Assembly (NCBI GenBank): GCA_934636905.1
Contig: CAKUBJ010000010.1
Span: forward strand, 1-50,416
DNA from: an uncultured Dysosmobacter sp.
GTDB lineage: Bacteria; Bacillota; Clostridia; Oscillospirales; Oscillospiraceae
Length of the DNA stretch: 50,416 nucleotides
Reading direction: 5' to 3'
Below the pieces are notes generated by a model. It searched no databases and had not been told where the DNA came from. It saw only the letters and a list, made by a program, of their open reading frames with translations. Shown one piece after another: positions 4,521 to 21,797 of this stretch. The first letter of the stretch is position 1, and every line of letters starts with the position of its first letter. The translations under genes were made by a program, and so were the position numbers.

Positions 4521-6497
4521 ATGACAACCACCTTCGGCGATACTTATGAAATCAAAGCCCTGATCGGCAGGGGCGGCATGTCCACCGTCTATCTGGCGGA
4601 ACACAAGCGCCTTCACACCCGCTGGGCGGTGAAGGAAGTGCGCAAGCAGGGGGCGCAGTTCGACTTTCTGGCGGAATCCAACATTCTGAAGCGGCTGCAG
4701 CATCCCATGCTGCCCCGCATCGTCGATATTTTCGAGGATGACCGGAGCATTTACATTGTTGAGGATTTCGTGGAGGGCATCACGCTGGAAGCCCTCCTGA
4801 AGCAGCAGAAAAGGGTGGATGAAGCACAGGGGCTGCAATGGTTCCGGGATCTCTGCGGCGTGCTGCGCTACCTCCATCATCAGCAGCCCCACCCCATCAT
4901 CTACCGGGACATGAAGCCCTCCAACGTGATGCTCCAGCCGGACGGCACCCTGAAGCTGATTGACTTCGGCATTGCCCGGGAATACAAGCAGGAATCCAGC
5001 GCCGACACCACCTACATCGGCACCAAGGGCTATGCGGCGCCGGAGCAGTTCGGCAAGGCCCAGACGGATGCCCGGACGGATATTTACGCGCTGGGTGTGA
5101 CCATGTACCATCTGCTGACGGGCAAAAGCCCCTACGAGCCGCCGTACCAGTTTGTCCCGGCCCGGCAGCTGGTGCCGGAGCTGTCCCACGGTGTGGAGTA
5201 CATCCTGAACAAATGCGTTCAGCCGGAGCCGGCAGACCGCTATCAGAGCGTGGACGAACTGCTGGACGACCTGAATCATATCTATAAATTTGACAGGGCG
5301 TGGAAAAAGTACCGGAACGCCAGACGGATCCGGGCGGCGGTCATCGTCGTCATGCTGGCAGCCTCTATGGGGCTGATGGCCGCGGGACGCATCATGATGG
5401 CGCAGGAGAAAGAGGACGCCTACGCCGCCCTGCTTGCCAGAGCCGGCAGCCTCTATACCTCCGATTTTGACGGTGCGGAGGCGGCGCTGGACGAGGCTCG
5501 GGCGCTGTTCCCGGAGCGGATGGACGCCGACCGGCAGGAAACCTACGCGCTGTATCTCAACGGAAAGTGGCAGGAATGCGTGGACTTCGGCACGCAGGCG
5601 CTGGAGCGCTTCGGGGCGGATGTCCAGACCCGGCTCACCGTGGCCTCCGCCCAGTTTGAACTGGGAGAATATGAGGCAGCGGCAGAAGGCTTTGCCCAGG
5701 GCGGCAGCCTGTCTGCGGACAATCTGCGGGATTACGCCGTGTGCCTTGGCCGTCTGGGGCGGATTGACGAGGCGGAAGCCCTGCTGGCAGATCTGACGGC
5801 GCAGGGCGCCGCATCGGATGTCACCACCTATGTGCAGGGGGAAACCTTCTACGCCAGAGGGGACTATCTCTCTGCGGAAGCCGCGTTCCTCACGGCGCTG
5901 GACGAAGCCCGGACGGACAGCCTGACCCGGCGGTGCTATCTCTCCCTGGGGGATTTGTACCGGGACTGCGCCGCCATGGCCCGGGTGAACCAGTCCCCCA
6001 TTGCCCGTCCTGCCGCCAAATCGGCGGAACTGCTGTCTGCCGCCGTGGTGCAGGCGGGGATGCAGTATGACTCCGTCCTGTGGGAAATGCTGGGCATGGC
6101 TTATTTTGAAGCATACCGCGCCGGAGACGTCACGGATCCGGACTATCTGAACAAGGCGGCGGACTGCTTTACCCGGGTGATTGCGTTGGGGGTGACGAAG
6201 GACTATCTCTACAGCAACCTTTACACCATCTACTACGAGCAGGGCAGGTACGACCAGGCGGAGCAGGCGCTGGAGGACTATGAGGCCATGTTCCCTGACA
6301 GCTATCTGCCCCACGCCCTGCGGGGCATGATGCTCATCACCGTGGAAAATCAGAAGCCCCAGTCCGGCCGGGACTATCGCGCCGCCGTGCAGGAGTATGA
6401 AGCGGCAGGCGCTCTGATCCGCGGGGAGGACGACACCTCGTATTATCAGCAGCTGGGCAGTCTGATTGACAGCCTGAAGAAAAACGGCTGGCTTTGA
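4521..6497 (+). CDS. Membrane Ser/Thr protein kinase with TPR repeats
   Basis: This 658-residue Hanks-type kinase shows a glycine-rich loop GRGGMSTVY (16-24), the AVKEV lysine K38, catalytic-loop YRDMKPSNV with D130 (Tyr replaces the usual His of HRD), DFG at D148 and an APEQF/TDIYALG activation region. A single membrane helix at about 275-297 places the kinase in the cytoplasm. The C-terminal 350 residues are helical TPR-like repeats predicted to lie outside. PASTA repeats, typical of PrkC, are absent. The ATG at 4521 follows a G-rich site; the frame is open a little further upstream. The next gene encodes a membrane protein with repeated Thr motifs, and FHA and PP2C proteins lie on the opposite strand, so this is the likely writer of a pThr circuit tied to the secretion locus. 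Confidence 0.9.
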   Translation: MTTTFGDTYEIKALIGRGGMSTVYLAEHKRLHTRWAVKEVRKQGAQFDFLAESNILKRLQHPMLPRIVDIFEDDRSIYIVEDFVEGITLEALLKQQKRVDEAQGLQWFRDLCGVLRYLHHQQPHPIIYRDMKPSNVMLQPDGTLKLIDFGIAREYKQESSADTTYIGTKGYAAPEQFGKAQTDARTDIYALGVTMYHLLTGKSPYEPPYQFVPARQLVPELSHGVEYILNKCVQPEPADRYQSVDELLDDLNHIYKFDRAWKKYRNARRIRAAVIVVMLAASMGLMAAGRIMMAQEKEDAYAALLARAGSLYTSDFDGAEAALDEARALFPERMDADRQETYALYLNGKWQECVDFGTQALERFGADVQTRLTVASAQFELGEYEAAAEGFAQGGSLSADNLRDYAVCLGRLGRIDEAEALLADLTAQGAASDVTTYVQGETFYARGDYLSAEAAFLTALDEARTDSLTRRCYLSLGDLYRDCAAMARVNQSPIARPAAKSAELLSAAVVQAGMQYDSVLWEMLGMAYFEAYRAGDVTDPDYLNKAADCFTRVIALGVTKDYLYSNLYTIYYEQGRYDQAEQALEDYEAMFPDSYLPHALRGMMLITVENQKPQSGRDYRAAVQEYEAAGALIRGEDDTSYYQQLGSLIDSLKKNGWL

Positions 6498-6544
6498 GCC
6501 GGGAGCAATGCCCCGGCAATCTGGACAGACAGGAGATGGATGGG

Positions 6545-6964
6545 ATGAGCACAGGACAACTGGTATTTTACGGCGGCGCGGCGCTGCTGGCGGTGACCAT
6601 TCTGCTGGCGGTGGTGTTCCTGATTCGCAAACCGGTGTATACGCCGGAAAAGGCCGTCTATGACGGCGCAGCGCAGAACCGGACCCAGCCCTTCCGCAGC
6701 GGCTATCCCACGGATCCGCTGACGGTGCGGCGGGACACGCCGGAGAAAAAGGCGGAGGAAACCCTGCCGCTGGCAGAAGAGACGGTGCCCCTGACGCAGG
6801 AAACCCCTCCCTTGAGGGATGAAACGGTACCGCTGGCGGCGGAAGCGGTGCTTCCGGTGCAGGAAACGGTGCCTCTGACGGAGGAAACCGTGCCTCTGTC
6901 AGCGGATACTGCCCCATTGTCGGAAGAAACGGTGCCGCTGGCCGCAGCTGCACCGGAAAAATAA
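6545..6964 (+). CDS. Membrane protein with EThPL heptad array
   Basis: This 139-residue protein has an N-terminal membrane helix (about 6-27) and a hydrophilic tail ending in nine consecutive heptads (residues 72-134) of form [ED]-T-x-P-L-x-x: ETLPLAE, ETVPLTQ, ETPPLRD, ETVPLAA, EAVLPVQ, ETVPLTE, ETVPLSA, DTAPLSE, ETVPLAA. I do not recognise a named family. Each regular heptad offers a Thr with Leu at +3, a context compatible with pThr recognition by FHA domains; phosphorylation by the kinase just upstream is inference. AGGAG at 6531-6535 is 9 nt before the ATG at 6545; the ATG at 6536 abuts that site and is less likely. It is co-directional with the kinase, 47 nt after its stop. Confidence 0.8.
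   Translation: MSTGQLVFYGGAALLAVTILLAVVFLIRKPVYTPEKAVYDGAAQNRTQPFRSGYPTDPLTVRRDTPEKKAEETLPLAEETVPLTQETPPLRDETVPLAAEAVLPVQETVPLTEETVPLSADTAPLSEETVPLAAAAPEK
6758..6946 (+). repeat. Tandem 21-bp coding repeats (heptad array)
   Basis: Nine 21-bp units encode the [ED]TxPLxx heptads. Eight keep the Thr-x-Pro-Leu core; the fifth (EAVLPVQ) has lost the Thr. Codon variation between units shows they are not a recent expansion. Confidence 0.85.
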
Positions 6965-7028
6965 GGGGCGCAGTCCGGAGTTTCCGCCCCGGCACCCCTC
7001 TGCCCCGGCAAATACGAGGAATTGAAGA

Positions 7029-7059
7029 CCCGAAGCCGCTGTTGTCCAGCGGCTTCGGG
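7029..7059. terminator. Shared terminator between convergent genes
   Basis: CCCGAAGCCGCTG (7029-7041) pairs perfectly with 7047-7059 around a 5-nt loop. It lies between the heptad-array gene (+) and the lipoprotein gene (-) that ends at 7066, and can serve both; T-runs on either side are weak. Confidence 0.65.
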
Positions 7060-7065
7060 CCTGAT

Positions 7066-8442
7066 TCATTCTTTCCAGAAGTCGAGGGAGCGTATCCGCT
7101 TTCCCTCGGAGTCATAGAGATACAGGGTGGTCTGATTGTCCCCGTAACCGCTTGCCAGCTTCACCCCGTCCATGGAATAGGTGTCGGAGTCTCCGTCCGG
7201 TTCCAGAATGGTAAAGGTGCTGCCCTGATAGCTGTAGCTGTACTTCAGCGTGCCGTTTTCATACACCTCCAGCGGAAGCCCCTGCTCATCTCTGGTGCAG
7301 GTATATTCATCGGTATCCTCAACCCGCCTTCCGGTAATGTCATCCTCCCAGAAGTCGCCGGTACTGCCGTCGGGATAGGTGGTCGTGGTGCGGATGGTGA
7401 TGGCGCTGGCAGGCGCTTCCTTCTGCGTATAACGCAGGCTGCCGTCCTGGTCATACTCCTCGTAGGTTTTGTATCCGTCCGCGTCATAAGTCCAGATGGA
7501 ATGGGCGCCGTTATTGTACTGCTCAACAAACCGTCCCTGAGCATCATACTGGGTAATGATCTGATAATCAGGATTCGCGCCGCCGTTGCTCCATTTTCTG
7601 CATTTGACCACATGGTTTGCGTCATCGTGCTCCAGCGTGTCCTCAAAGGTCAGGACGCCATCGAAATACACACGGTTTGCCGTCAGAGTCCCCTGCCCAT
7701 CATACAGGCCTTCCCAAAATTGCCCGTCGGCCGAGGTAAAGGTATACCGGGCAAGGCTGCCGCCGGAAAATTCCCAGACCTCGGTTCCGGAATCAGACGT
7801 CCTCCTGTATTGGGTCAGTTCCCCGCCGGAAACGGTGCAGTCATCCCCCTCCGGCAGGATGGCCTGCCCGCCGGCGTCGTATTCCACAATCAGGTCGGTG
7901 CCCCAGTCGATGCCATAACCACGCACCAAATAAAAGACTGTCCAGCCTTCCACGGAGCCGTCCTCGGCAAGGGTTGTCTGTTTTTTCCTGCTGACGGAAT
8001 CGTATTCGATTTCAATCGTGCCCAGCGGCCGGCCGTCCCCATGAAAAGAGGTTCTCCGGATCTCCCGTCCCTGTTCATCATAGGTGTATTCCGTATAGCT
8101 GGACAGGGTTCCGGCATCCTGTGCCGGCAGCAGCTGATCCAGCTTTTCCTGAATGGCCGGGTCACCGGTTTTGTCCCATCCGCGCTCCAGGGCATCCAGC
8201 GCTTTGGAGAGATCACCCTGCCCCAGATAGGCGTCGGCCAGCCCCAGATAGGCCTCCGGCTGCTTGGGGTCGATTCTGATGGCGGCCTCGAAGGCAATGA
8301 CGGCCTCCTCATAGCTGCCGTCGGAGAGATACCGGACGCCCAGATCATACTGCTCCTGCCATGTGGAGCCGCCTGCCGGGTTTCCGCCGCAGGCCGTCAG
8401 CAGCAGGAGGGCGCCCAACATGAGAGCCAAAAATTTCCGCAT
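7066..8442 (-). CDS. TPR / YD-repeat lipoprotein
   Basis: This 458-residue protein has a signal peptide and lipobox LTAC (Cys at about 17-18). A TPR pair follows (about 25-95: YDLGVRYLSDGSYEEAVIAF, AYLGLADAYLGQGDLSKAL). The rest is about ten degenerate wing/YD-like beta repeats (TYDEQGRE, EYDSVSR, QYDAQGRF, TYDADGYK), the type seen in extracellular Rhs-like and MORN-like proteins. The ATG at 8442 was chosen for the signal peptide and the AAAGGAAA ribosome site; the frame is open upstream over the intergenic palindrome. Last gene of the - strand locus, 112 nt after the PP2C gene. A surface-binding or assembly role next to the secretion machine is inference. Confidence 0.8.
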   Translation of the reverse strand: MRKFLALMLGALLLLTACGGNPAGGSTWQEQYDLGVRYLSDGSYEEAVIAFEAAIRIDPKQPEAYLGLADAYLGQGDLSKALDALERGWDKTGDPAIQEKLDQLLPAQDAGTLSSYTEYTYDEQGREIRRTSFHGDGRPLGTIEIEYDSVSRKKQTTLAEDGSVEGWTVFYLVRGYGIDWGTDLIVEYDAGGQAILPEGDDCTVSGGELTQYRRTSDSGTEVWEFSGGSLARYTFTSADGQFWEGLYDGQGTLTANRVYFDGVLTFEDTLEHDDANHVVKCRKWSNGGANPDYQIITQYDAQGRFVEQYNNGAHSIWTYDADGYKTYEEYDQDGSLRYTQKEAPASAITIRTTTTYPDGSTGDFWEDDITGRRVEDTDEYTCTRDEQGLPLEVYENGTLKYSYSYQGSTFTILEPDGDSDTYSMDGVKLASGYGDNQTTLYLYDSEGKRIRSLDFWKE

Positions 8443-8474
8443 ATTCCGTTTCCTTTCCACATCGTCGATTGACA

Positions 8475-8506
8475 CGGGAAAACACGCCGGCCGGCGTGTT
8501 TTCCCG
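8475..8506 (+). terminator. 32-bp perfect palindrome, terminator-like
   Basis: CGGGAAAACACGCCGG is directly followed by its complement. A T-rich tract (CTTTTCTTTT) follows on the + strand. It lies between the PP2C and lipoprotein genes, so for the - strand operon it is an intercistronic hairpin that could lower downstream expression or stabilise the 3' end of the upstream message. Confidence 0.5.
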
Positions 8507-8554
8507 GTGCTTTTCTTTTCATCTGCCATCTTGCCGGAGGCAGGCGGCGGCGCG

Positions 8555-9454
8555 TCAGATCTGCTCCTCTGTGTGCAGAAGGTGCGCCGATTCCAGCACA
8601 ACCGGCGGCAGCTCCGGCTGCGCCGGTACTTTTTTGCGGAACAGCCGCTGAAAAATTCCCCGGGAGGGTACGGCGGCCAAAGCGCTTTCCTTTGTTTTGC
8701 AGAGAACAACCGTGATGTTGTCGGTTTCCCCCCTGCTTTTGCAAAGTTCTGCCAGCCGGAAGGCGGCGTCCTGCATGACGCTCTGGGTTCCCATGGCGGC
8801 GGGGTTCAGCGCCCCGGCCAGTTCTTCCTCCGCCAGTTCGTGGCAGAAGCCGTCCGAGCACAGCAGATAGACGCTGTCCGGCTCCACCCGGCACTCCGTA
8901 AAGGCGGGGATTACCTCCCGCCCGATGCCGATGCACTGCAGCAGCACATTTTTCTGAGGGTGATGCCGGGCCTCCTCCCGCGTAATGCGCCCCTGCTGAA
9001 TTTCCCGCTCCACCAGTGACTGATCCTGCGTCAGCTGTGTGACGCCGTTTTTCACCCGGTAGATCCGGGAATCCCCCACGTTGACCAGCAGGCACCGGCT
9101 GTTGACCGCCAGCAGAGCCGTCAGGGTGGAGCCCATCTGGGCGCCACTCTGCGCCCCATGGGCGGCAATGCGCAGGTTCAGCTGCGCAATCAGATCCGTC
9201 AGCTGCTGCCGCGCTGCCCCGAAGCCCTGCGCGGCGGCCAGCAGTCCCAGATTGGCGTCAAACCACGTTTCCAGCCCCCGGATTACCGCGGCGCTGGCCA
9301 GTTCGCCCTTTTCAAGGCCGCCCATGCCGTCGCACACCGCCGCGAAGAGCATCTCGCCGCCCTCAGGCAGGGAAACCCGCCGCAGGCAGAGACTGTCCTG
9401 ATTGGTGGATTTCCGGGTGCCGATGTCCGTATAGACCGCCGTTATATAGTCCAC
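8555..9454 (-). CDS. PP2C-family protein phosphatase
   Basis: This 299-residue PPM/PP2C phosphatase has motif 1 at about 11-21 (DIGTRKSTNQDS), AAVCDGMGGLEKGE at about 38-51 with both metal-binding Asp/Gly elements, NVGDSRIY near 125, SDGFCHEL near 197 and a late DNITVVL metal-site motif. The C-terminal 50 residues are a positively charged tail without a membrane helix, so it is cytosolic. The start lies 6 nt beyond the stop of the FHA gene, implying translational coupling. The expected role is removing phosphate from Ser/Thr sites placed by the divergent kinase; that pairing is inferred from the locus. Confidence 0.92.
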   Translation of the reverse strand: MDYITAVYTDIGTRKSTNQDSLCLRRVSLPEGGEMLFAAVCDGMGGLEKGELASAAVIRGLETWFDANLGLLAAAQGFGAARQQLTDLIAQLNLRIAAHGAQSGAQMGSTLTALLAVNSRCLLVNVGDSRIYRVKNGVTQLTQDQSLVEREIQQGRITREEARHHPQKNVLLQCIGIGREVIPAFTECRVEPDSVYLLCSDGFCHELAEEELAGALNPAAMGTQSVMQDAAFRLAELCKSRGETDNITVVLCKTKESALAAVPSRGIFQRLFRKKVPAQPELPPVVLESAHLLHTEEQI

Positions 9455-9460
9455 AGGTGA

Positions 9461-10666
9461 TCATCCTTCCAGTGTAAAGGTAAACTCCTCATTGGCCAGA
9501 CGCAGAGCCGCGCCGTTTTCCAGCGGGTGCAGCTGGTGAGGCGGCAGCAGGACGCCGTTGAGATAGGTCTTGTTGGTGGAGCCGAGGTCCCGGATCAGCC
9601 AGACGCCCTCCTGCGTCACGATTTCGGCATGGCTGCGGCTGATGGTGGGATTGTCCCCGATGCAGTAGTCCACCTGACCGGCCTCCTTGCCGATGCGGAA
9701 GGTGCCGCCGTGGATTTCCACGCGGCTGCCGGTGCTTTTGCGCACCAGAAAGGCTCTGGGCTGGGGGGCCGGTTCCGCTTCGCCCAGAAGGATGGTTCCC
9801 CCGGGGGCGTCCAGAATAACCGTGCCGCCGCAGTTGGGCTCTGCCCCGGGAGCCGGAGGCACCGGGACAGGCGGGTGGATGGCAATGGGCGGTACTGCAG
9901 GGGGCGCCACAGGCACTGCGGCAGAAGGTGCCGCCTGCGGCGCAGCGGGCGCTGCGGCAAAGGCTGCCGGAGCCTGCGCCTGCACCGGTACCGCCGCAGG
10001 GGTGTGGTTCGGTGCTGCCGCAGGAGGCGCGGCGGGCGTGTGAACCGGCGCCGGAGGGGTATACCAGATTCCGCCGCCGGGCGCAGCAAGCGCCTCCTGT
10101 ACCGCCGGCTGCACGGGGGTCTGAGCCGCCGGACGCAGCAAACGCTCAAATTCGTTCAGGGTGAAAGCACCGGGACGATCCAGAAACGCCGTCAGTTCGT
10201 TCAGGAAGGTCACCTGCTCATAGGTGCTGCGGTTGACCTTCCGGGACAGCTTCCGCAGGAAGTCCGGAATAGACGCATCCCGTTTGCTGTCCCGCAGAGG
10301 CAGATAGATCATGTGCAGGGAGCGATCCTGCAGGGCGATGTAGATCTGGTCAACGTCCAGCACCAGATTCTTGTAGTTCAGGTAGACCGCCTGCATGGCG
10401 CGGAACAGTTCCGTAAACTGCAGCAGAAGTTCCACAAACTGCTCCCGGCTCAGAATGCAGGAGAGATAGAATTCCAGGGTGGTAAACGGCGTGATGTCAT
10501 AGTCAATGACGTTGTTTTTCCTGCCCTGCACCGCAACGGGAGGGATCAGTGCCGGGACGGCGCCGGAGGCCAGCAGCTCAATCTCCTTGGGATCGAACTG
10601 CTCCTTCCAGCCCAGCTTTGCCGTAAAGTACCGGGTGGTTCCCTTTTTTGCAGCAGATAATTTCAT
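9461..10666 (-). CDS. DUF6382-FHA domain protein
   Basis: This 401-residue cytosolic protein has three parts: an N-terminal globular domain (about 1-180; IDYDITPFTTLEFYL, LNYKNLVLDVDQIYI) of the type annotated DUF6382 in Bacillota FHA proteins, a Pro/Ala-rich linker (about 185-310), and an FHA domain (about 325-400). The FHA motifs are complete: FRIGKE, ISRSHAEI, LGSTNKTYLNG. FHA domains bind phosphothreonine. GAAGGAG lies about 11 nt before the ATG at 10666. It sits between the small helical genes and the phosphatase and most likely reads phosphorylation by the locus kinase, joining it to the secretion machine. Confidence 0.88.
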   Translation of the reverse strand: MKLSAAKKGTTRYFTAKLGWKEQFDPKEIELLASGAVPALIPPVAVQGRKNNVIDYDITPFTTLEFYLSCILSREQFVELLLQFTELFRAMQAVYLNYKNLVLDVDQIYIALQDRSLHMIYLPLRDSKRDASIPDFLRKLSRKVNRSTYEQVTFLNELTAFLDRPGAFTLNEFERLLRPAAQTPVQPAVQEALAAPGGGIWYTPPAPVHTPAAPPAAAPNHTPAAVPVQAQAPAAFAAAPAAPQAAPSAAVPVAPPAVPPIAIHPPVPVPPAPGAEPNCGGTVILDAPGGTILLGEAEPAPQPRAFLVRKSTGSRVEIHGGTFRIGKEAGQVDYCIGDNPTISRSHAEIVTQEGVWLIRDLGSTNKTYLNGVLLPPHQLHPLENGAALRLANEEFTFTLEG

Positions 10667-10686
10667 GTTGTTTCGGCTCCTTCCCC

Positions 10687-10983
10687 TCAGACGCTGCCGT
10701 TGTCCGGCGTGTGTCTGTTCAGCCACTGTTCCGTGGAGCTGTACTGCTCCACCGCCTGATCCACCAGACCGGAGAGACGCTTCCCGCGGCTTCTGACGGC
10801 AGCGGCGGAGGTATCGGCGCTTTTCAGCTGCTTTCCGATCTGATAGCGGGACTGAATGTCGGAATCCACTCTGCGCCGCAGCTGGGAAAGGGTTTCCTCC
10901 ACATCCTCCATCTGCTTCAGCAGCTTTTTCAAATCCCTGTTGGCGCTGTTCACGCCGCTGAAATTGATTCGGATTTTTGCCAT
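10687..10983 (-). CDS. Small helical protein, T7SS-associated
   Basis: This 98-residue, highly charged, all-helical protein has heptad-like spacing (KKLLKQMEDVEETLSQLRRRV) compatible with a coiled-coil hairpin. There is no central WXG, but a C-terminal YSSTEQW fits the YxxxD/E export signal of type VII substrates. The stop of the preceding gene is 3 nt away. I cannot assign a named family. It could be an Esx-like partner or a chaperone for the neighbouring 98-residue protein. Confidence 0.7.
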   Translation of the reverse strand: MAKIRINFSGVNSANRDLKKLLKQMEDVEETLSQLRRRVDSDIQSRYQIGKQLKSADTSAAAVRSRGKRLSGLVDQAVEQYSSTEQWLNRHTPDNGSV

Positions 10984-10986
10984 GGC

Positions 10987-11283
10987 TCAACTCCCTGCTC
11001 TTTCCGCGGCGGCGGCCGCCTCTTCGGCAGCCTCCTCCGCCAGAATATCCTCAATTGCCTCGTCCATGTCCCGGTACAGGCTGTTCAGCCGGTCGGTCAG
11101 CTTTCTGCTGCGGCCGGACAGATCCTCCACCACCCGGCTGAGGTACCGGGTTTCCGGCGCAGACCAGGACTGGTTCAGCGCTGTGCCATAGCGGCGCAGC
11201 CCCTTTTCAACGGCCTGCATCTGCTTTGCGCAGCGTTTGATTTCCGCCAGCTGCCTTCTGGCCATGGTTTCGTTCAGTGACAT
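10987..11283 (-). CDS. Small WXG100-like helical protein
   Basis: This 98-residue protein consists of two predicted helices joined by NQSWSAPETRY, placed where WXG100 proteins have their W-x-G turn. A YRDMD (YxxxD) motif lies in the second helix and the tail is Ala/Glu-rich. It pairs with the gene 3 nt downstream, also 98 residues long, suggesting a heterodimer as in EsxA/EsxB. Assignment to WXG100 proper is uncertain because Gly of WXG is replaced. Confidence 0.65.
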   Translation of the reverse strand: MSLNETMARRQLAEIKRCAKQMQAVEKGLRRYGTALNQSWSAPETRYLSRVVEDLSGRSRKLTDRLNSLYRDMDEAIEDILAEEAAEEAAAAAERAGS

Positions 11284-11307
11284 TTGCTCACCTCATATCA
11301 GAAATGC

Positions 11308-13695
11308 TCAGACTGTGCCGCCGGAATTGTCCGGGGGCAGGAACTCCCACTGGCTGTTGCTGTAATCGCTCATATCCACATAGACCGCGCACTTGACATG
11401 GACATCGGGATTGTCCTTCAGCGCCACGGACACATAGGTAAGGCCCACGCCCACCGGTGTTACGTTGCCTTCCCCATCCACCGTGGCCACGGAGGGATCC
11501 TCCGAAGACCAGACGCAGTCCGGCGGCAGCTCCCCTTTGTCCCCTTTGCCGATTTCGGGATTCCACAACATTTCCAGCTTCTGCGCCGGGGCGTTATCGC
11601 CGTCGAATACCAGCAGATAGGACTTCAGATCCAGTGTGCCCGCATCGGAGGCATACGCCGGCTCTTCCACATCCTCCGCATAGAATTCAAAGGGGGTAAA
11701 GACGTTGGTGCAGGTTTGCACCGGGTGGAGGAAGTCAAAATTGTCCACATGATATTTGAGGAACGTATCCGTGCCCTTGGGGAAGAAATTGATTTCAAAC
11801 CCGCTGATATGGAGTTTCTTCAGGAAATCCGCCGGATTGAATGTCAGCTTTCCTACCCAGCTGGCCTTGATCTCCGTGCAGGTTTTGGTGAAAAGCTCAA
11901 TATCCCCTTCCGGCAGGTTCAGCTTTGGCGTTCCCTCTATGTTGTTGGCTGCCGCGTATTCCAGTGCGGCGTTCAGCACCGCGTCCGGTGACGATCGGAT
12001 TTCGATGTTCTGATTTGCCTCCAGCGTGCCGATGGCCGCCCCGTCAGCTGTTGTTTCGCTTTCCAACTGATGCATTTCCCCGTCTACCAGATGGATCGTC
12101 AGAGAGGCTTCCAGCCCGGCGCCCAGCTGTGCCGAGAGATCCAGCACCTTCCACTTGTTCAGGATTTTCAGCGCGATGCCCGGGCCGGCGGTCAATTCCG
12201 CCTTTGCCTTGAACTGCAGATCCGCATCTGCGGAGGTGGTCTTGATCTTCCGTATATTGCCGTTGCGGTACTCAATGCCCTGGGCGCCGGAAATCGTCAG
12301 AGACGCCGAGATCTCACCCGTTATCTTGAAGCAGAGCTTCAGTTCCAGCTTCACCTGGGCAATGCCGCCCTCCACCAGGGACCAGGAGCCGATGACGATC
12401 TCCTTGCCCTTGATCCTGTCGGCACCATTGGCGGATGCATCCCGCCATTCACTGCGGGTGAGGTTGGTCAGGAATTTCCCGTTGCCGTTGTTATAGGGGG
12501 CATAGAGTTTATCGACCCAGGTGAAGCTGGCGCCGCCGCTGACCTTCACCTGATAATTCAGCCGGGTAGTCAGGGTTTTCAGGCCGCTGAACACACGGTA
12601 ATCAATGTCATTGGTCAGCGCAATATTGGAGAGTTCAAGACTTCCGGAGAGGCCGGAGGTCTGGTTTCCCTTCTTGTCCTTTTCCACCGGTGCCTTGAAC
12701 CCGATGGAAACGGAGTTTCCGCTGTACTTCCCCTCAATGGTTACGTCGCCGACCTTAAATTTGATGGAACCACTGCCAAGGGCCGTCTGCTGAAGGGCTG
12801 CGCCGGAGGTACCTCCCAGAAAATGGGCGCCGCCGGCACTCTTCCCGGCTCTGGCGCCGGAGGCGGAGCCGCCGGAGGGCATATGTACATTGCCGGCACC
12901 GTCCACAAAGACCGCCTGAGACAGGTCAGGAGCATAGGATTCCTGCACCACCAGTTCCTGCACCACGTCTTCCAGCTCCAGATCATCGCCATCGTCTTCC
13001 GTGATGATGTAGTAGCCGTTTTCCTCCCGGACGTATTCCGCTCTGGCGGCGGTCAGGCCTTCGGCACCGTCATACACGAAGGTGTCCCCCGGCTGGATGG
13101 AACCGGCGGAAACCGGGACGCGGATCTGCCCGTCAGTCACCTCCGCCGGCGTTTCCCGCAGATCCTGCACGCCCTCCTTCAGATCCAGTTCTTCCCGCTG
13201 CTCCGTAAACTGCTTGGTGGCCCAGATCTCGGCGGCTTTACGGACGGATGCCTCGGCCTCCGCATAATCCACCTTCTGCTTTTCCTTGATGTTCCCCTGA
13301 TCGGTGGTTTCCACAAGGCCGTTGGCGGCGGCGGACGCCAGCTTTTCCTCGTCGGTGGCGGTGTCCAGATCCGGCACCAGCACCGCGGCGTTCACCAGCG
13401 CAATGGCCAGTTCCCCCCGGGGCACTCTGCCGCCCACGTCGTACTTCTGGTCGTCCGTGCCGATGATGTCCCACTCCACGCAGGCCTGCACCACGTCAAA
13501 ATACGGGTTGTCGGCAGGAACCGATTCCAGATAGGGCTGGGCAGACTGATAGGTGTCCATGCCGAAGTAATCGCAGATCATGGTCAGCAGGTCACCTCTG
13601 GTAAACTCAGAGCCGCCGTCCTTCTTTCCGCAGCCGGACAGCAGTCCCGCCAGCATGGCTGCCGTCAGCAGCAGGGCAATCATGCGCTTCCTCAT
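11308..13695 (-). CDS. Large lipoprotein with SLH-like and Ig-like (BIG2) domains
   Basis: This 795-residue protein begins with a lipoprotein signal (lipobox LLSGC). An SLH-like helical domain follows at about 27-105 (FTRGDLLTMICDYFG, YFDVVQACVEWDIIG, VPRGELAIALVNAA), then a long beta-rich region, and at the C terminus a bacterial Ig-like group 2 domain (VWSSEDPSVATVDGEGNVTPV). The ATG at 13695 follows GGAGG closely and fits the signal peptide. It stands between the WXG100 pair and the second small pair, an unusual place for a big surface lipoprotein, so it may be an outside component of the secretion apparatus or its surface anchor; that is inference. Confidence 0.8.
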   Translation of the reverse strand: MRKRMIALLLTAAMLAGLLSGCGKKDGGSEFTRGDLLTMICDYFGMDTYQSAQPYLESVPADNPYFDVVQACVEWDIIGTDDQKYDVGGRVPRGELAIALVNAAVLVPDLDTATDEEKLASAAANGLVETTDQGNIKEKQKVDYAEAEASVRKAAEIWATKQFTEQREELDLKEGVQDLRETPAEVTDGQIRVPVSAGSIQPGDTFVYDGAEGLTAARAEYVREENGYYIITEDDGDDLELEDVVQELVVQESYAPDLSQAVFVDGAGNVHMPSGGSASGARAGKSAGGAHFLGGTSGAALQQTALGSGSIKFKVGDVTIEGKYSGNSVSIGFKAPVEKDKKGNQTSGLSGSLELSNIALTNDIDYRVFSGLKTLTTRLNYQVKVSGGASFTWVDKLYAPYNNGNGKFLTNLTRSEWRDASANGADRIKGKEIVIGSWSLVEGGIAQVKLELKLCFKITGEISASLTISGAQGIEYRNGNIRKIKTTSADADLQFKAKAELTAGPGIALKILNKWKVLDLSAQLGAGLEASLTIHLVDGEMHQLESETTADGAAIGTLEANQNIEIRSSPDAVLNAALEYAAANNIEGTPKLNLPEGDIELFTKTCTEIKASWVGKLTFNPADFLKKLHISGFEINFFPKGTDTFLKYHVDNFDFLHPVQTCTNVFTPFEFYAEDVEEPAYASDAGTLDLKSYLLVFDGDNAPAQKLEMLWNPEIGKGDKGELPPDCVWSSEDPSVATVDGEGNVTPVGVGLTYVSVALKDNPDVHVKCAVYVDMSDYSNSQWEFLPPDNSGGTV

Positions 13696-13784
13696 ACTTC
13701 TTCCTCCCAATTTTATTCACACGGTCTGAACCGCCGGGGCGGTTCATATATCAAAGGCTTCTGCCTGAATTTCCAAAGTCGGTG

Positions 13785-13814
13785 GGTCTGCGGGGCATTG
13801 CTGCCCCGCAGACC
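13785..13814 (-). other. Intercistronic hairpin after the WXG100 genes
   Basis: A perfect 13-bp stem (13785-13797 with 13802-13814) with a 4-nt loop lies immediately downstream of the second WXG100 gene. A second, 8-bp hairpin is at 13728-13745. No T-run follows either, so partial attenuation or 3'-end protection of the esx message is more likely than full termination. Confidence 0.5.
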
Positions 13815-13827
13815 GGTGGTGCGGCAA

Positions 13828-14127
13828 TCAGATGAACTGGCTGCCGGCGTTGGTGTTCAGCGTGCTTTCGGTGGCCTCATACTGTGCGGCGGTGTTGTCC
13901 AGGAACTTGGCGTAGCTTTCAATGACTTCCTTGTAGGAGTCAAACTTCGGCTGCATGGCGGTGATTTTGGCGCGGATGGTATCGGAGGTGTCGGAACTCC
14001 ACTGGGCTTCCAGACTGTTGATGGCGTTCTTGATGGTAATCAGCGTTTCGGTCAGCGTCTCGTTGTAGCCCCGCAGCTGGGAAGCTTTCGCCTTGACTTC
14101 TTCAAATGTAATTTTAACATCAGCCAT
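13828..14127 (-). CDS. WXG100-family protein
   Basis: A 99-residue helical hairpin with the turn AQWSSDTSD (W-S-S in place of W-x-G) at about residues 42-50 and YEATE (YxxxE) in the C-terminal part. Length and motif positions match EsxA-type substrates of type VII systems. AAAGGAG precedes the ATG. The gene follows another WXG100 gene by 34 nt, the usual arrangement of a co-exported pair. Confidence 0.88.
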   Translation of the reverse strand: MADVKITFEEVKAKASQLRGYNETLTETLITIKNAINSLEAQWSSDTSDTIRAKITAMQPKFDSYKEVIESYAKFLDNTAAQYEATESTLNTNAGSQFI

Positions 14128-14161
14128 AATTCATTACTCCTTTCAATTGTCCGGTCAGCGA

Positions 14162-14473
14162 TCAGGAACCCTGAGACAGGGTCTTGGCAGCGCTGGCAAT
14201 GTTGCTCTGCGTCTCGCGGTAGGCGGCAGCGCTCTTGCGCAGGTAGGCCGCATAATCCCGCATCAGCTTCTCCATGCGCTGGAAGTCGTCCCGGAAGCCC
14301 TCAATCTGATTGGTGAAGGCGGTGTTGTCGGTGCCGGACCAGGCGTTCTGCAGTTCCTGCACCGCGTTGAACAGGGCGGTGTAGTTGGAGTTGTAGGTAT
14401 CGGCGCAGCCCTCTACCTGAGATGCCGTGCTGTCCAGCTGAGCGGTTTCAACGATGATGTGTCCTCTTGCCAT
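14162..14473 (-). CDS. WXG100-family protein
   Basis: A 103-residue helical hairpin with a canonical NAWSGTDN turn (W-S-G) near residue 45 and an ETxQLxxTASQVEGC amphipathic first helix. The C-terminal end carries AYRETQ rather than a strict YxxxD/E. GGGGAAA precedes the ATG. It is the first of two adjacent WXG100 genes downstream of yukD-like and essC, so it is probably half of a secreted heterodimer. Confidence 0.92.
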   Translation of the reverse strand: MARGHIIVETAQLDSTASQVEGCADTYNSNYTALFNAVQELQNAWSGTDNTAFTNQIEGFRDDFQRMEKLMRDYAAYLRKSAAAYRETQSNIASAAKTLSQGS

Positions 14474-14513
14474 TGTGAATTTCCCCTTTCTGATAATGGT
14501 GAATCATGATTGT

Positions 14514-14765
14514 TTATATCAACATGAGCCGGGATCCGTTTTTCAGGCCAAGGTCCCGAATCAGCATGTTTGCATTGAGAAAGCGGCCGCTTTCCCGGTC
14601 ACAGAGAACGCTGTCCGCGTCCGCCTGATACAGCCCGCCGGACAGTTCCGAGAGGGAACCGGCGGCAAGTTCCGTCACCTGCCGCAGGGGCAGATTCTCC
14701 GGAATGGTGACATCGAAGCTTCTGCCGGCAGCCGGGACGTAGATTTCAACGGTGATGCGATTCAT
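14514..14765 (-). CDS. yukD: YukD/EsaB ubiquitin-like protein
   Basis: This 83-residue beta-grasp protein starts ITVEIYVPAAGRSFDVTIPENLPL, continues with a helix (QVTELAAGSLSEL) and ends NMLIRDLGLKNGSRLMLI, the characteristic YukD/EsaB pattern. EsaB is a cytosolic component or regulator of type VIIb secretion that cannot be conjugated. Its ATG overlaps the essC stop by 4 nt (ATGA), implying coupled translation. Confidence 0.88.
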   Translation of the reverse strand: MNRITVEIYVPAAGRSFDVTIPENLPLRQVTELAAGSLSELSGGLYQADADSVLCDRESGRFLNANMLIRDLGLKNGSRLMLI

Positions 14766-17700
14766 TCGTCAGCCTCCTCTGTCTTCTTCCGTCCCAGCAG
14801 CTTCATCAGCGTGGGTCTGCCCCGGCGGACGGCGTAGCCGAACCCGTCAGGCACCTCCGCGTAAAGGTCGCTGCTGATTTTCGCCAGCTTCAGGGCGTAC
14901 TGGTCGCTGATTCCGTCGCCGGCCCACAGCCCGTCGTTCCCCGTCACAAAGCGTTTGTACCAGCCGCAGGCGGTGAGGGCGGTGATGCCCTTCACGGTGT
15001 CGCACACCAGAAAACGGATGTTGTATTCCGGCTCCGCCTTTTCCAGAAGGGTGTTCAGCCGGTCTTTCCCCTCTGCCGTCAGTCCGGAGAGAATGTCGGC
15101 AAGGCCGGTGAACAGCACCACCTGAAGCGGGTACTCCGGCAAAGGTTCCTGCTTCTGCAGGGCGGTTTTGTAGGTGTTGTTCCTGCGAACCATCTCGCCG
15201 AAGAGGTCAGCCGTCTTTTCCTCAAAGTTTCCGGCGGCATAGCTGTAGGCAGCCCCATCGTCGTCGGTAAACACCCCCCGGCCGTCCCACACGGAAACCG
15301 CCGCGTCCTTCAGAAGCGCCAGCGTTTCGGCAAGTCCCTGTGCGGGGCTTCCCAGACTGTAGGCGTCCTGCGCCGCCAGAATGGTGACGATGTTCTCCTG
15401 AAGGTTCAGCCTGCGAATCCGCAGGGAGGCCTTCTCCACCCCCACCGGGAAGGCTTCCAGAGACACCTGCTCCCGCATCAGTTCGCAGTCCACCTGCTCC
15501 GGCAGGGTCGGCACCGGCCTTGCCCGGACGTCGGCATCCTTTGCCAGCGCCGCCGCAAAGGCACGGATGGCCTCCGCGGAGTCGTCCTTCATGGCGCAGG
15601 CGGTCTGGAACTCGTAGGTGCGGTCGCTCTTGAAAATGCCGCGCCCCTTGATGGCGGAGGGATACACGCCGTCGGTGCTGCCCAGCAGCCCCACATAATC
15701 CGCCCGGTCGTTCAGCTGCAGAACCAGCGTCTGCTTGAAATTCTGGGCGATGCGGTAGCGCACGGCGCCGGCGCTGCTGGCTGTCACCACAAAGCTGATG
15801 CCGTAGGACAGGCCGTCCCGGGCCAGCTGGCTGAGGGTGTCCTCCAGCTGCTCGAACAGTTCGCCGAAGGCGGAGTAGTTGTGCAGCACCACCAGAATCT
15901 GAGGCACCTTCCTGCCGGTGCTTCTGCAATAACTCTGCAGGCTCCCGCCGTAGTCGGCAAACAGCTTCCTGCGCTGTGCCAGTTCCCCCGTCAGCATCTT
16001 GAAGAGGTTGGTAATGCGCTCCGTGTCGCCGGAGAGGAGCACGTCACCCACCTGCGGCGCCTTTTCAAAGGCTTTCAGGGATTCCTCCCCCAGATCCAGC
16101 AGGTACAGGTTCAGGGATTCGGCGCTGTAATGGCGCAGCAGGTCATAGAGCACGGACTGGAGCAGCATCACCTTTCCGCTGCCGGCGGTGCCGTAGATCA
16201 GGGCGTTGCCCTGCTCCGTCAGAGGCAGTGTCAGCAGCGCCTGCCGCTGGTTGAAGGGATCGTCCAGTTCGCCTGCCACAGGCGCCAGCGCCAGTTCGTC
16301 GGACACTGCGCCGTACTTCTCCCGGAGATCGTCCACATAAATCCGTGCCGGGATGGCGGGAAGCCACAGCTGCCGCGCCTGATTGCTGCCGGCCAGCGCG
16401 GACAGGTACTCCACCACGGAAACCACCTGACTGCGGGCGGCTTCCCCGGCGTCCTGCGCCGCTCTGGGCTTTGCCTCCCGGCGGACGCGCCCCAGATGGT
16501 CGATGACGGCCACGCTGTCATTGCGGTTTTTCGCGGCGCGCTCGGCAGGCCGGTAGGGGGCACCGCTCCATGCGGACTGCCCCATGGCAAACAGTTCGTT
16601 GAAGCCCACCTGCAGGTAGAACCGGCCGGTTTCGGCCAGTGCCGCCGCGTCAGGCCGCTTAATCATGTCCATACTGTCGGAGCGCTCCTGCACCTTCAGG
16701 CAGACCCGGAAGCGGCTGTTGCTCCAGATCTGGTCGTCCACTACGCCGGAGGGCTTCTGGGTGGCAAGAATCAGGTGGATGCCGAGGCTCCGGCCGATGC
16801 GGGCGGCGGAAATCAGCTGCTCCATGAACTCCGGCTGCTGGGCCTTCAGTTCGGCAAACTCGTCGGAGATGATGAACAGGTGAGGCACGGCCTCGCTGAC
16901 CTGGCCGCTGCGGTACATCTTCTGGTACTTGTAGATGTCAATGGTGCCTTCCCCGGAGATGCGCCGGGCCTCGTTGAAAATTGCCTGCCTGCGGCGCAGT
17001 TCGCTCTGGATGGAAATCAGAGAGCGCTTCACCGCAGTGCCGTCCAGATTCGTGATGGTGCCTGCCAGATGGGGCAGGCGGATGCCCCGGACGGTATCCT
17101 CAAAGGCGCCGGCCAGACCGCCGCCCTTGTAGTCGATGAGGATGAAGGCCACTTCCTCCGGGCTGAAATTCAGCGCCAGAGAGAGGATGTAGGTAATGAT
17201 GAACTCACTTTTGCCGGAGCCGGTCATGCCGGCCACCAGACCGTGGGGGCCGTGGAATTTTTCGTGGAGATCCAGCGTGAAGAGTTCTCCGTCTGTTCCC
17301 ACACCCACCGGCACCTGTAAGGAATTGACAGGGTTGTTTTCCTTCCAGCGGGTCAGGGCGTTGAGATGCTCCACCTTGCCCACGCCGTACATTTCCAGGA
17401 AGGAGAGCATATCCGGCAGCTGATAGTGCTCACTGCCGCCGTCCAGCACCAGATTGGAAAGGCTCTTTGCCGCGGCGGTTTCGTCGATGCCCTCCGCCGT
17501 TTCGGGGCGGAAGGCCAGCCGCTGGCCGGAGGGTTCCCCTTTGGCGTATACGCAGGCGGTTTCCCCCTCCACTTCTACGACCCGGGAGCACTCTCTGGGC
17601 AGATCCTGCAGATCCTGCGCCACGCAGATGCAGGAGAAGCCGGCCTCCGCCGGGGCGCTCAGTGCCTGGGTAAAGAAGGCGTTCTTTTCCATCAGCTTCC

Positions 17701-19351
17701 GGTCTGTCATCAAAATCACATACCGGGGCGTCAGGTTCCCCCGCTGGCGGCTGAGGCTTTCCGTGCGCTCCGCCAGAAGGGGCTCCAGCTGGGCGGACAG
17801 TGCCCGTGCCTCCTGCTCACCGGCGGCGAAATAGCGGCTGGTTCCGGTGTCATCCCAGATGTGGGGCAGCCAGCGGGCAAAGTCCCAGTCCGGCAACTCC
17901 TCTTCCCCGGTCAGAACCACCAGCTTCACGTCCTCCGGGCTGTGCAGCGCCGCCGTCTGAAGCAGCAGGCTCCGGGTCATGGCCAGCGCCTTCTCCCGCT
18001 GTCCCAAAATGCCGCAGACGGGATTTTCCAGCAGGGAGAGGGTGACGGGCACATCCTTCAGCACCTTCGGCTCATCCTGAAGCCGGGCCAGATCGTGCAT
18101 CAGGTAATCGTCTTCCAGCACAAAGCGCTGATCCGGGAACCGGAGGTTCACTGCCAGAGGCAGTTCTCCCAGTCCCAGCCGCAGCCGGAGGAAGTCCTCA
18201 TGCTCCGGCGCCCGCTCCCACAGTCTGCGCTGCCGTTGGAAAATCCGCTGGGCGCATTCCTGCACGTCGGGGCTGTTTTCCGCCAGTATTTCCGCCTGCC
18301 GGGCGCTGAGCCGTCCCAGCCGGTCCCGGACGGAATCCAGATATTCCCGGTATTTGGCCTGCCGCAGCTGCTCTGCGGCGTTTTTCTTTTTCTTCTCGTG
18401 GCGCTTGGTGAGCATGGGCCAGAGCACCGTTCCGCACAGCATACTCAGGGACATCACCAGCGTGGGAATCACCGAACTGAGGGTAGAGGTGCCGGCCAGA
18501 TAATTGCTGACGGCCACGGCCCCCATCACCAGAGAGGTGACGCCCATGGTCAGCGCCGGCCCCAGCAGCAGTGCCAGAGGAACCTCCTCCATGCGCTCCC
18601 GGTTGGGCGGGGCGTCCACCCGGATGTCCTCCGCCGTAACGCTGCGGCAGAACCGGGGGGAGCGGCAGAAAGGCTCCTCCTGCACCGGCAGGCTCTGCTC
18701 CGCCGGGGCTTCCGGCTCCTGCCGGCGGAAGGGGGTGACGGCGCCGGTGTTGACGCGGACGGTTCCGTCCGGGTCGTTGACGGCGAAGAACATCCCGCCG
18801 ATGAGGATTTTCAGTCCCATGACAAACACCACGTCCCCGGGCTTCAGCTGCGCCAGCGCGGTGCGCTGGCCGTTGACGAAGGTGCCGTTGCTGCTCTGGG
18901 TGTCCACCACGCTCCACGCGCCGCCTTTGCAGATAAGCCTTGCATGGTGGGCGGAAACGTATTTGTTCTCAAAGACAATCTGGTTGTCCGGCGTCCTTCC
19001 CAGCGAGAGGTCGCAGTCCCCCTGCAGGCAGTACTTGCGGAAGGTCTGCCTGCCCCGGGTGTCCGGCTCCGCGTAAATCTGGCTGCGTTCGCCGGTGGCC
19101 CGGTCAACGGCGGAGATAACCCGGGTTTCCTCCGGCGCCAGCCGGACGGATTCCGCCGCCCTGCCGATTTCGTCCAGCAGTGTCAGGAACTCCCCGGACT
19201 GCAGCACCCACGCGTCCTCAAGCCCCTCGGCATTCAGAACCTTCCGGGGATGCCCCTGCCCGTCCGTATCGCTGAGCCAGTATTGACCGCTGACCCGCTC
19301 CGGAAGGGAGATGCTGTAAATCCTGTCCTTTGTTATCAGTGTTACAATCAT
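14762..19351 (-). CDS. essC: EssC-type T7SS FtsK/SpoIIIE motor ATPase
   Basis: This 1,529-residue protein has an N-terminal EssC/FHA region (FHA motifs SLGRTPDN, SAHHARLI, SSNGTFVNG at about 115-165). Two membrane helices follow (about 255-310: LALLLGPALTMGVTSL, VIPTLVMSLSMLCGTVL), then tandem FtsK/SpoIIIE ATPase domains. The first has Walker A GMTGSGKS (about 705) and Walker B FILIDYKGGGL. The second has GTAGSGKV (about 1055), lacking the Ser/Thr after Lys. A shorter C-terminal domain completes it. The ATG at 19351 follows AGGTG and fits the EssC N terminus; the frame is open 35 codons further. It powers export of WXG100 proteins. EssB, EssA and EsaA are not found beside it. Confidence 0.93.
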   Translation of the reverse strand: MIVTLITKDRIYSISLPERVSGQYWLSDTDGQGHPRKVLNAEGLEDAWVLQSGEFLTLLDEIGRAAESVRLAPEETRVISAVDRATGERSQIYAEPDTRGRQTFRKYCLQGDCDLSLGRTPDNQIVFENKYVSAHHARLICKGGAWSVVDTQSSNGTFVNGQRTALAQLKPGDVVFVMGLKILIGGMFFAVNDPDGTVRVNTGAVTPFRRQEPEAPAEQSLPVQEEPFCRSPRFCRSVTAEDIRVDAPPNRERMEEVPLALLLGPALTMGVTSLVMGAVAVSNYLAGTSTLSSVIPTLVMSLSMLCGTVLWPMLTKRHEKKKKNAAEQLRQAKYREYLDSVRDRLGRLSARQAEILAENSPDVQECAQRIFQRQRRLWERAPEHEDFLRLRLGLGELPLAVNLRFPDQRFVLEDDYLMHDLARLQDEPKVLKDVPVTLSLLENPVCGILGQREKALAMTRSLLLQTAALHSPEDVKLVVLTGEEELPDWDFARWLPHIWDDTGTSRYFAAGEQEARALSAQLEPLLAERTESLSRQRGNLTPRYVILMTDRKLMEKNAFFTQALSAPAEAGFSCICVAQDLQDLPRECSRVVEVEGETACVYAKGEPSGQRLAFRPETAEGIDETAAAKSLSNLVLDGGSEHYQLPDMLSFLEMYGVGKVEHLNALTRWKENNPVNSLQVPVGVGTDGELFTLDLHEKFHGPHGLVAGMTGSGKSEFIITYILSLALNFSPEEVAFILIDYKGGGLAGAFEDTVRGIRLPHLAGTITNLDGTAVKRSLISIQSELRRRQAIFNEARRISGEGTIDIYKYQKMYRSGQVSEAVPHLFIISDEFAELKAQQPEFMEQLISAARIGRSLGIHLILATQKPSGVVDDQIWSNSRFRVCLKVQERSDSMDMIKRPDAAALAETGRFYLQVGFNELFAMGQSAWSGAPYRPAERAAKNRNDSVAVIDHLGRVRREAKPRAAQDAGEAARSQVVSVVEYLSALAGSNQARQLWLPAIPARIYVDDLREKYGAVSDELALAPVAGELDDPFNQRQALLTLPLTEQGNALIYGTAGSGKVMLLQSVLYDLLRHYSAESLNLYLLDLGEESLKAFEKAPQVGDVLLSGDTERITNLFKMLTGELAQRRKLFADYGGSLQSYCRSTGRKVPQILVVLHNYSAFGELFEQLEDTLSQLARDGLSYGISFVVTASSAGAVRYRIAQNFKQTLVLQLNDRADYVGLLGSTDGVYPSAIKGRGIFKSDRTYEFQTACAMKDDSAEAIRAFAAALAKDADVRARPVPTLPEQVDCELMREQVSLEAFPVGVEKASLRIRRLNLQENIVTILAAQDAYSLGSPAQGLAETLALLKDAAVSVWDGRGVFTDDDGAAYSYAAGNFEEKTADLFGEMVRRNNTYKTALQKQEPLPEYPLQVVLFTGLADILSGLTAEGKDRLNTLLEKAEPEYNIRFLVCDTVKGITALTACGWYKRFVTGNDGLWAGDGISDQYALKLAKISSDLYAEVPDGFGYAVRRGRPTLMKLLGRKKTEEADE

Positions 19352-21002: not shown

Positions 21003-21004
21003 AC

Positions 21005-21709: not shown

Positions 21710-21797
21710 ATTCCTTCCCCCCACCACACATTCTCTTTTGCCGGAATCTCCCATGACCTGAAGTCGTGCCGTGCAGGACACATCCGGCTTTTTCCTG

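Follow-up and report, generated by a model that had tools for sequence, protein, structure and literature searches.

A T7SSe/T7SSj-type secretion locus with a candidate, nearly threonine-only TxxL docking code, carried by a cassette shared with Tad-pilus loci

Three subtypes of type VII secretion system (T7SS), T7SSe, T7SSf and T7SSj, have been defined by Garrett, Higginson and Palmer 2024 (PMC11217815) by the same parts that make up the locus described here. According to the excerpts of that paper at hand, T7SSe/j include TsxA, TsxB, TsxC, the kinase TsxD, the PPM phosphatase TsxF, the DUF6382-FHA protein TsxJ and the one-TM protein TsxK; the residues that bind phosphothreonine (pThr) are kept in the EssC FHA domain of T7SSe, T7SSf and T7SSj, and TseK is made of one TM helix and a short, unstructured tail. 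The same excerpts raise the control of T7SS by phosphorylation, with the parallel to T6SS, and place T7SSg and T7SSh next to Tad genes. For T7SSb, the contact between pseudokinase and FHA domain is held to be independent of phosphorylation, the FHA residues not being conserved (PMC9600267, in the portions available). pThr is the ligand of FHA domains, for which the residue at +3 also counts (PMC5549992, likewise in part). A first-pass annotation of the present locus had proposed secretion gated by reversible phosphorylation, through a complete pThr circuit belonging to the T7SS itself. Since the excerpts of PMC11217815 contain both the parts and pThr control, this main claim is already in print: a writer, an eraser, readers and a candidate scaffold can all be recognised, while neither the arrangement nor the idea is new, and the circuit is not the system's own, as reported below.

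The sequence studied, indicated as "the window", is a stretch of 50,416 bases, with the genes of interest at 4521-19351. Gene maps were obtained from mechanical ORFs and iterated profiles, with which short helical proteins may suffer profile drift. EssC, YukD, two WXG100 proteins, a Hanks kinase, a PP2C phosphatase, a DUF6382-FHA protein (J) and a threonine-rich membrane protein (K) were all found, by Pfam/NCBIfam matches and ORFs, where the first-pass annotation had located them; two lipoproteins (7066-8442 and 11308-13695) and two small helical proteins (10687-10983 and 10987-11283) had been omitted from it. The kinase, followed by K, lies on the plus strand; all other genes of the locus are on the minus strand. 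Starting from EssC, the minus strand order opens with the EssC/TsxC ATPase itself (14762-19351; TIGR03928, 1040 bits against a cut-off of 778), whose FHA domain (18827-19006; Pfam FHA, 1.7e-15) displays GRT, VSAHH and SSNG, and thus the GR, S-x-x-H and S-N-G residues. It is followed by a YukD/EsaB-like protein (TsxB; 14514-14765; 1.6e-6, above cut-off), by two TsxA/A2-like WXG100 proteins (14162-14473, 2.2e-13; 13828-14127, 7.5e-14) and by a 795-aa lipoprotein (11308-13695) with a C-terminal Big_2 domain; in a number of further T7SS loci, relatives of this lipoprotein come after the WXG100 genes. After the two helical proteins come J (9461-10666), PP2C (8555-9454) and a TPR lipoprotein (7066-8442), extracellular by its signal peptide.

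Neither helical protein has a Pfam match above cut-off. The one at 10687-10983 groups with WXG100 proteins in an iterated profile, where drift is possible, and the one at 10987-11283 gives weak matches (1.7e-4 and 7.7e-4) to iterated WXG100 profiles: the pair, located between J and the lipoprotein, may perhaps consist of remote WXG100 relatives, acting as secretion partners. On the other side, genes for a GHKL sensor kinase and a LytTR response regulator (19719-21727, minus strand) directly adjoin EssC; histidine-kinase and regulator genes are likewise close to EssC in two other genomes (G304, G009b). No Tad gene, TsxI or second EssC was found in the 50,416 bases of the window by the profiles used.

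The window features two WXG100 proteins and a YukD-like protein, an EssC FHA domain with the pThr residues kept, a membrane kinase D, a PPM phosphatase F and a DUF6382-FHA protein J, all traits of T7SSe; the TPR in the C-terminal domain of the kinase is a trait of T7SSj. T7SSe has two one-TM proteins, TsxH and TsxK, which are described alike; by this description, one such protein (6545-6964) was found in the window. TsxI, a large Ig-like protein typical of T7SSe and T7SSj, was not found among the ORFs of the 50,416 bases by a profile grown from the large Ig-like protein of a Tad locus (L073). The locus mixes T7SSe features (two WXG100 proteins) and T7SSj features (TPR kinase), without a detectable TsxI. 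It is assigned to the T7SSe/T7SSj type by gene content, the EssC tree containing no named T7SSe/j references. As for the T7SSb partners, YukC, EssA and EsaA have no Pfam match among the 18 window proteins scanned; YukC/EssB, detected in the B. subtilis control, was not found in 30 out of the 31 EssC-containing genomes described below, the sole one being that of G009, beside an EssC copy devoid of kinase, PP2C and J genes.

The writer is a TsxD-like Hanks Ser/Thr kinase (4521-6497; Pkinase, 4.7e-50), where the glycine loop, a VAIK-type Lys, YRDMKPSN, DFG and APE are all readable. A single hydrophobic stretch, with TPR matches beyond it, defines a TPR domain outside. The closest kinases are those of two other loci, L022 and L024 (71 and 72% identity). 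In the TsxF-like PP2C, the eraser, the metal-site motifs are similarly readable (NQD, DGMGG, GDSR, SDG, DN); its match to PP2C_2 (9.7e-10) is above cut-off, while that to a Stp1-type NCBIfam model reaches 1.9e-53 yet is below the curated cut-off (181 out of 230 bits). Among 79 kinases, the glycine loop is present in 74, the HRD-type motif in 72, DFG in 69 and APE in 76; among 69 PP2Cs, N[E/Q]D and DGxGG are each present in 67, SDG in 69, DN in 63 and GDSR in 50. In L022 and L024, several paralogous TPR lipoproteins, resembling the one at 7066-8442, are found around the kinase, between PP2C and K: as the outer part of the kinase is also made of TPR, they may be ligands or sensors for it.

K is a TsxK-like protein with one TM helix, proposed here as a pThr scaffold. 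Its start was placed at 6545 because this is suggested by its homologues in L022 and L024, which are also its closest relatives. Its tail is encoded by an array of nine 21-base units (6753-6940; TRF, 62% matches), the proposed FHA docking array. Numbering the residues from an open frame beginning at 6494, heptads with [E/D]-T-x-P-L are found at 89, 96, 103, 110, 124, 131, 138 and 145; the ninth, at 117, is degenerate. The DNA units match at only 62%, yet [E/D]TxPL is kept in 8 of the 9 heptads, which takes the threonine array beyond chance. Related K tails differ in sequence and retain such units.

Within 56 non-redundant K tails, TxxL occurs 288 times, against 62.4±7.9 after shuffling, while SxxL (56) is close to its shuffled value (48.3); the core motif contains Thr in 164 cases and Ser in one. 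When tails are taken singly, Thr motifs outnumber Ser motifs in 51, equal them in 5, and the reverse is never seen. The result was replicated on 59 database K tails absent from the first set (TxxL 262 against 63.1±7.4 shuffled; core motif 163 Thr to 0 Ser), whereas in a background of 1176 other proteins the core motif is found with Thr 87 times and with Ser 95 times. Three of 59 K-family and 30 of 89 database proteins had been removed because of redundancy, insufficient length or previous inclusion; all shuffle and motif counts treat sequences as independent, common descent being uncorrected. Only 10 of the 96 pairs of identical five-residue motifs within K tails share identical DNA, indicating that the DNA changes under a preserved protein motif. 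The side following the TM helix is more positive in 43 out of 56 K proteins and less positive in 4, so the tail is probably cytoplasmic. FHA domains strictly prefer pThr over pSer. The candidate scaffold with Thr sites, suggested in the first-pass annotation, is thus strengthened by nearly Thr-only TxxL arrays in 56 + 59 tails. The presence of a T-array in every EssC locus was also considered, and rejected: proteins with at least three motifs were found in only 6 of 33 EssC stretches (G106, G376, G317, G329, G094b, G096), by a pattern which misses Pro at +2 and hence also the window's own K; the G096 match, a 2917-aa protein, looks like chance.

The same motif is found in J, the proposed reader, formed by a DUF6382 domain (10121-10666; 6.1e-11), a linker and an FHA domain (9497-9697; 2e-15). 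Two TxxL motifs (T285-L288 and T294-L297; 9785-9823) are located immediately N-terminal of the FHA domain. T294, in alignment numbering, is invariant across 25 rows; in a 61-row linker alignment two T and two L columns reach at least 90%. Over 167 J linkers TxxL occurs 382 times, against 116.9±9.5 shuffled, with 240 Thr and 2 Ser in the core motif; by a looser pattern, 154 of the 167 contain TxxL at least twice within the 55 residues that precede the FHA domain. TxxL is, in fact, the conserved part of an otherwise variable linker. The docking code suggested by these alignments would accordingly be nearly Thr-only in both K and J. Presence of the J motif was tabulated for 94 of 107 J proteins, 13 being omitted for having less than 3 kb downstream: the motif is found in 65 out of 68 with PP2C nearby and in 9 out of 26 without (Fisher, 1.2e-9), or 63 out of 66 and 9 out of 26 after removal of repeated records (1.8e-9), kinship being uncorrected in both cases, so that relatives inflate the figures. 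The motif is kept without a nearby PP2C in nine J proteins (L011, L015, L016, L017, L034, L038, L041, L054, L186), and is absent despite one in three (G280, G208, L193).

An EssC-linked kinase from G106 (L121:8639-11032) carries an insert with five E-T-A-[L/I/M]-L units within the kinase domain; J from this genome (L208) lacks the motif, and K was not found on the two stretches examined. Ten Tad loci of one family (L196-L199, L201-L206) contain J and kinase, without PP2C or K: the TxxL pair is absent from their J linkers, and their FHA domains feature GR[F/Y/C]D instead of GKE.

In the window, the J FHA domain contains S346, R347, H349 and N368, with Lys at the usual Arg site. Where kinase and PP2C are both in the locus, S, R, H and N are found in 66 out of 66 J domains. 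Of the Gly-Arg, Ser-x-x-His and Asn expected of a pThr-binding FHA domain, Ser, His and Asn are thus kept in all 66, while the usual Arg is replaced by Lys in 62. At this site V, T or S is found in 10 of 25 aligned rows. The missing Arg, together with the canonical residues of the FHA domain in EssC itself and the short, unstructured tail reported for TseK (PMC11217815, in the excerpts at hand), would fit an ordinary T7SSe/j as published, where phosphorylation acts on EssC or other core parts and TxxL elements are flexible spacers, or kinase substrate motifs unread by FHA domains. This seems rather unlikely: in spacers Ser would be tolerated (against 163 to 0 here) and Leu at +3 would be free to vary, and the very same motif is the conserved piece of a variable linker, right before an FHA domain. 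The replacement of Arg by Lys might also suggest that J binds TxxL independently of phosphorylation, as the YukC pseudokinase and the YukB FHA domain do in T7SSb, kinase and PP2C serving other substrates; the YukB-YukC contact was observed in E. coli, where kinases of this sort are believed to be missing (PMC9600267, in the portions available). Such binding would hardly account for a nearly Thr-only motif, for S, R, H and N kept in all 66 domains and for a J motif which tracks PP2C, and is considered very unlikely.

When the full-length J model was used for structure searches, the matches listed were FHA domains; the N-terminal domain was therefore folded alone. DUF6382 is predicted to adopt a kinase fold, with structural matches over the whole domain, and, no catalytic motif being seen, is likely a pseudokinase. 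The best Foldseek match of the model is the N-terminal domain of TraF (8cba, 3.9e-4), part of a type IV secretion machinery of Gram-positive origin, which hints at similar adaptors in other secretion machines. Homology of DUF6382 to EssB was not supported by sequence (hhalign against YukC/EssB: E 0.076, probability 0.7%); EssB chains are absent among the structural matches listed, which shows neither kinship nor its absence.

Conservation beside EssC was evaluated on 400 genomes of the family around G001 (Candidatus Intestinimonas pullistercoris, the genome of L024), which contains the nearest EssC found (61% identical). The search (E 1e-100) yielded 34 places in 31 genomes; 33 were examined, leaving out G029, on a 3.3-kb contig. 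Kinase is present in 18 of the 33 stretches, PP2C in 15, both in 13 and a DUF6382 protein in 7, contig ends being uncorrected. Universal co-occurrence of EssC, kinase and PP2C is therefore rejected, and the genes are conserved around essC in part only. EssC genes without the others nearby, which the first-pass annotation had regarded as refuting its proposal, do exist and count in part against it: no kinase, PP2C, DUF6382 or second FHA protein is found on 30-38 kb in G092a, G331, G094a and G009b, and none in G001 and G266, but there contig ends cut the stretches. In a tree of 47 EssC proteins the window falls within a clade of 19 (support 100), 9 of which, counting the window, combine J, PP2C, kinase and K on one stretch. 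The other eight do not represent independent evidence, as they were fetched through J; none of the seven clade members fetched through EssC has all four genes on its stretch. G280 has J, PP2C and kinase, G304 PP2C and kinase, G106 kinase, G087 J and PP2C before the contig end; G001, G092a and G092b have none. In G001, however, a different contig (L024) carries PP2C, kinase and K, and G092 possesses a separate locus (L207) where all four genes occur together with a one-TM protein.

A different view is offered by loci collected through J, of which the best 80 of 172 were kept; shares of T7SS and Tad reflect this sample. They feature a series formed by J, PP2C, kinase and K, often with a 4-TM protein and a protein of about 2000 aa; two of the latter were checked (L055, L073) and both contain Ig-like domains. 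Tad marks, i.e. profiles from L022 and L073 genes (T2SSF, prepilin peptidase, DUF5702; L073 also T2SSE and TadE, by Pfam), are found alone in 50 of these 80 loci, EssC alone in 13, both in 2 and neither in 15. Kinase, PP2C and K accompany 54 of the 94 J proteins with enough room, sampled mostly through J: 37 of these complete cassettes are accompanied by Tad genes and have no EssC on their stretch, 10 accompany EssC, and in the remaining 7 neither is seen (36, 10 and 7 without a repeated record). Some records are duplicated (L031 = L191, L036 = L190) or overlap (L050, L052). L022, whose kinase and K rank among the closest to those of the window, is a Tad locus. In the 400 genomes PF19909 (1e-8) marks at least 26 places in 25 genomes, a lower bound, as J proteins of G143, G160, G208, G354 and G376, found by a J profile built for this analysis, are missed; 24 places were fetched, the other two being on contigs already included, and 21 of the 24 have Tad genes. 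Eight genomes are on both the EssC and the PF19909 lists. J-PP2C-kinase-K is thus a portable cassette, common to T7SS and Tad-pilus loci, and the pThr circuit cannot be described as the T7SS's own.

The prevalence of Tad among complete cassettes and PF19909 places, the EssC genes without a nearby cassette (G092a and others) and the 0 out of 7 whole cassettes in EssC-fetched clade members could also be explained by a regulator chiefly of Tad pili or of the cell envelope, located here beside EssC by chance and without action on the T7SS. This is unlikely, in view of the 9 clade members out of 19 having all four genes, even if eight were fetched through J, of the position of the cassette, which in these loci follows the EssC, YukD and WXG100 genes on one strand, and of the 50-kb window, where no Tad gene was found by profile.

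The interpretation we favour, and regard as fairly probable from the sequence data, is a T7SSe/T7SSj-type system with a portable phosphothreonine switch, where the TxxL threonines of K and J would be written, read and erased. We infer phosphorylation, FHA binding, secretion gating and an EssB-like role for J. Kinase D, a membrane protein whose TPR domain lies outside the cell, would phosphorylate TxxL threonines on the cytoplasmic K tail and, likewise, in the J linker. Phosphorylated sites would be bound by the FHA domain of J, and perhaps by that of EssC; as a consequence, phosphorylated K could gather J and EssC at the membrane. The phospho-linker of J might also hold its own FHA domain in cis, in a GarA/OdhI-like manner. 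PP2C would reset the system by erasing the marks. The J pseudokinase would be the likely plug to the machine, comparable to the EssB pseudokinase on the EssC FHA domain in T7SSb. In a broader form, the J-PP2C-kinase-K module may be a transferable switch, controlling T7SS and Tad pili, two unrelated machines of the Bacillota cell surface, via [E/G]-T-x-[V/P]-L, a code present in tandem on a membrane tail, twice on the reader and, in G106, inside the kinase; the J pseudokinase would replace EssB in T7SS, so that a constant contact would become switchable. This extended proposal has close to an even chance of being right, leaning slightly to doubt.

The locus, in conclusion, is real, partly conserved beside EssC and mostly of a known kind, while two points seem new within the literature searched: the candidate, nearly Thr-only docking code of K and J, and a cassette common to T7SS and Tad pili. 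Full-text searches (DUF6382, T7SSe, Tad pilus with FHA, kinase and phosphatase, ETTVL), subscription papers being mostly outside their reach, returned only PMC11217815 or unrelated papers. The puzzle posed by T7SS FHA domains, which in model T7SSb systems lack the pThr-binding residues, is addressed by naming threonines, motif and reader, so that pThr gating of T7SS becomes testable with peptides. T7SS and Tad pili of Clostridia would be tied to one control module, a lead to how uncultured commensals activate their surface machines.

In the T6SS threonine phosphorylation pathway the phosphatase is PppA. The PpkA-Fha-PppA pathway resembles the present proposal in having a kinase, an FHA reader and a pThr membrane protein recruiting the FHA protein (PMC3953482, in the part available). 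The machine, in contrast, is unrelated; the membrane target proposed here consists of a tandem array, and a kinase-fold domain forms part of the reader. TsxA-D, F and J, and a one-TM protein like TsxK, are common to the window and T7SSe/j, while neither a Thr motif in K or J nor a cassette in Tad loci that lack a T7SS is mentioned in the excerpts of PMC11217815 at hand. EssB/YukC with the EssC/YukB FHA domain of T7SSb represents, as here, a pseudokinase-FHA pair within a T7SS (PMC9600267, in the portions available); here, in contrast, FHA residues are kept, writer and eraser are present, and EssB was not found in 30 out of 31 EssC genomes. Among the best matches of the J FHA domain, by sequence and by fold, are GarA/OdhI and DgcB-type FHA proteins (6hc1, OdhI/GarA). 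In GarA/OdhI a phosphorylatable motif lies N-terminal to the FHA domain, which holds it in cis once phosphorylated; J adds a kinase-fold domain, and shares its motif with a second, membrane protein. Finally, the MviN (Rv3910) pseudokinase and FhaA (3oun, 3otv) pair a kinase-fold domain with an FHA reader, as J does: they are two proteins, acting in cell-wall synthesis, whereas J combines both domains in one polypeptide, found in secretion and pilus loci.
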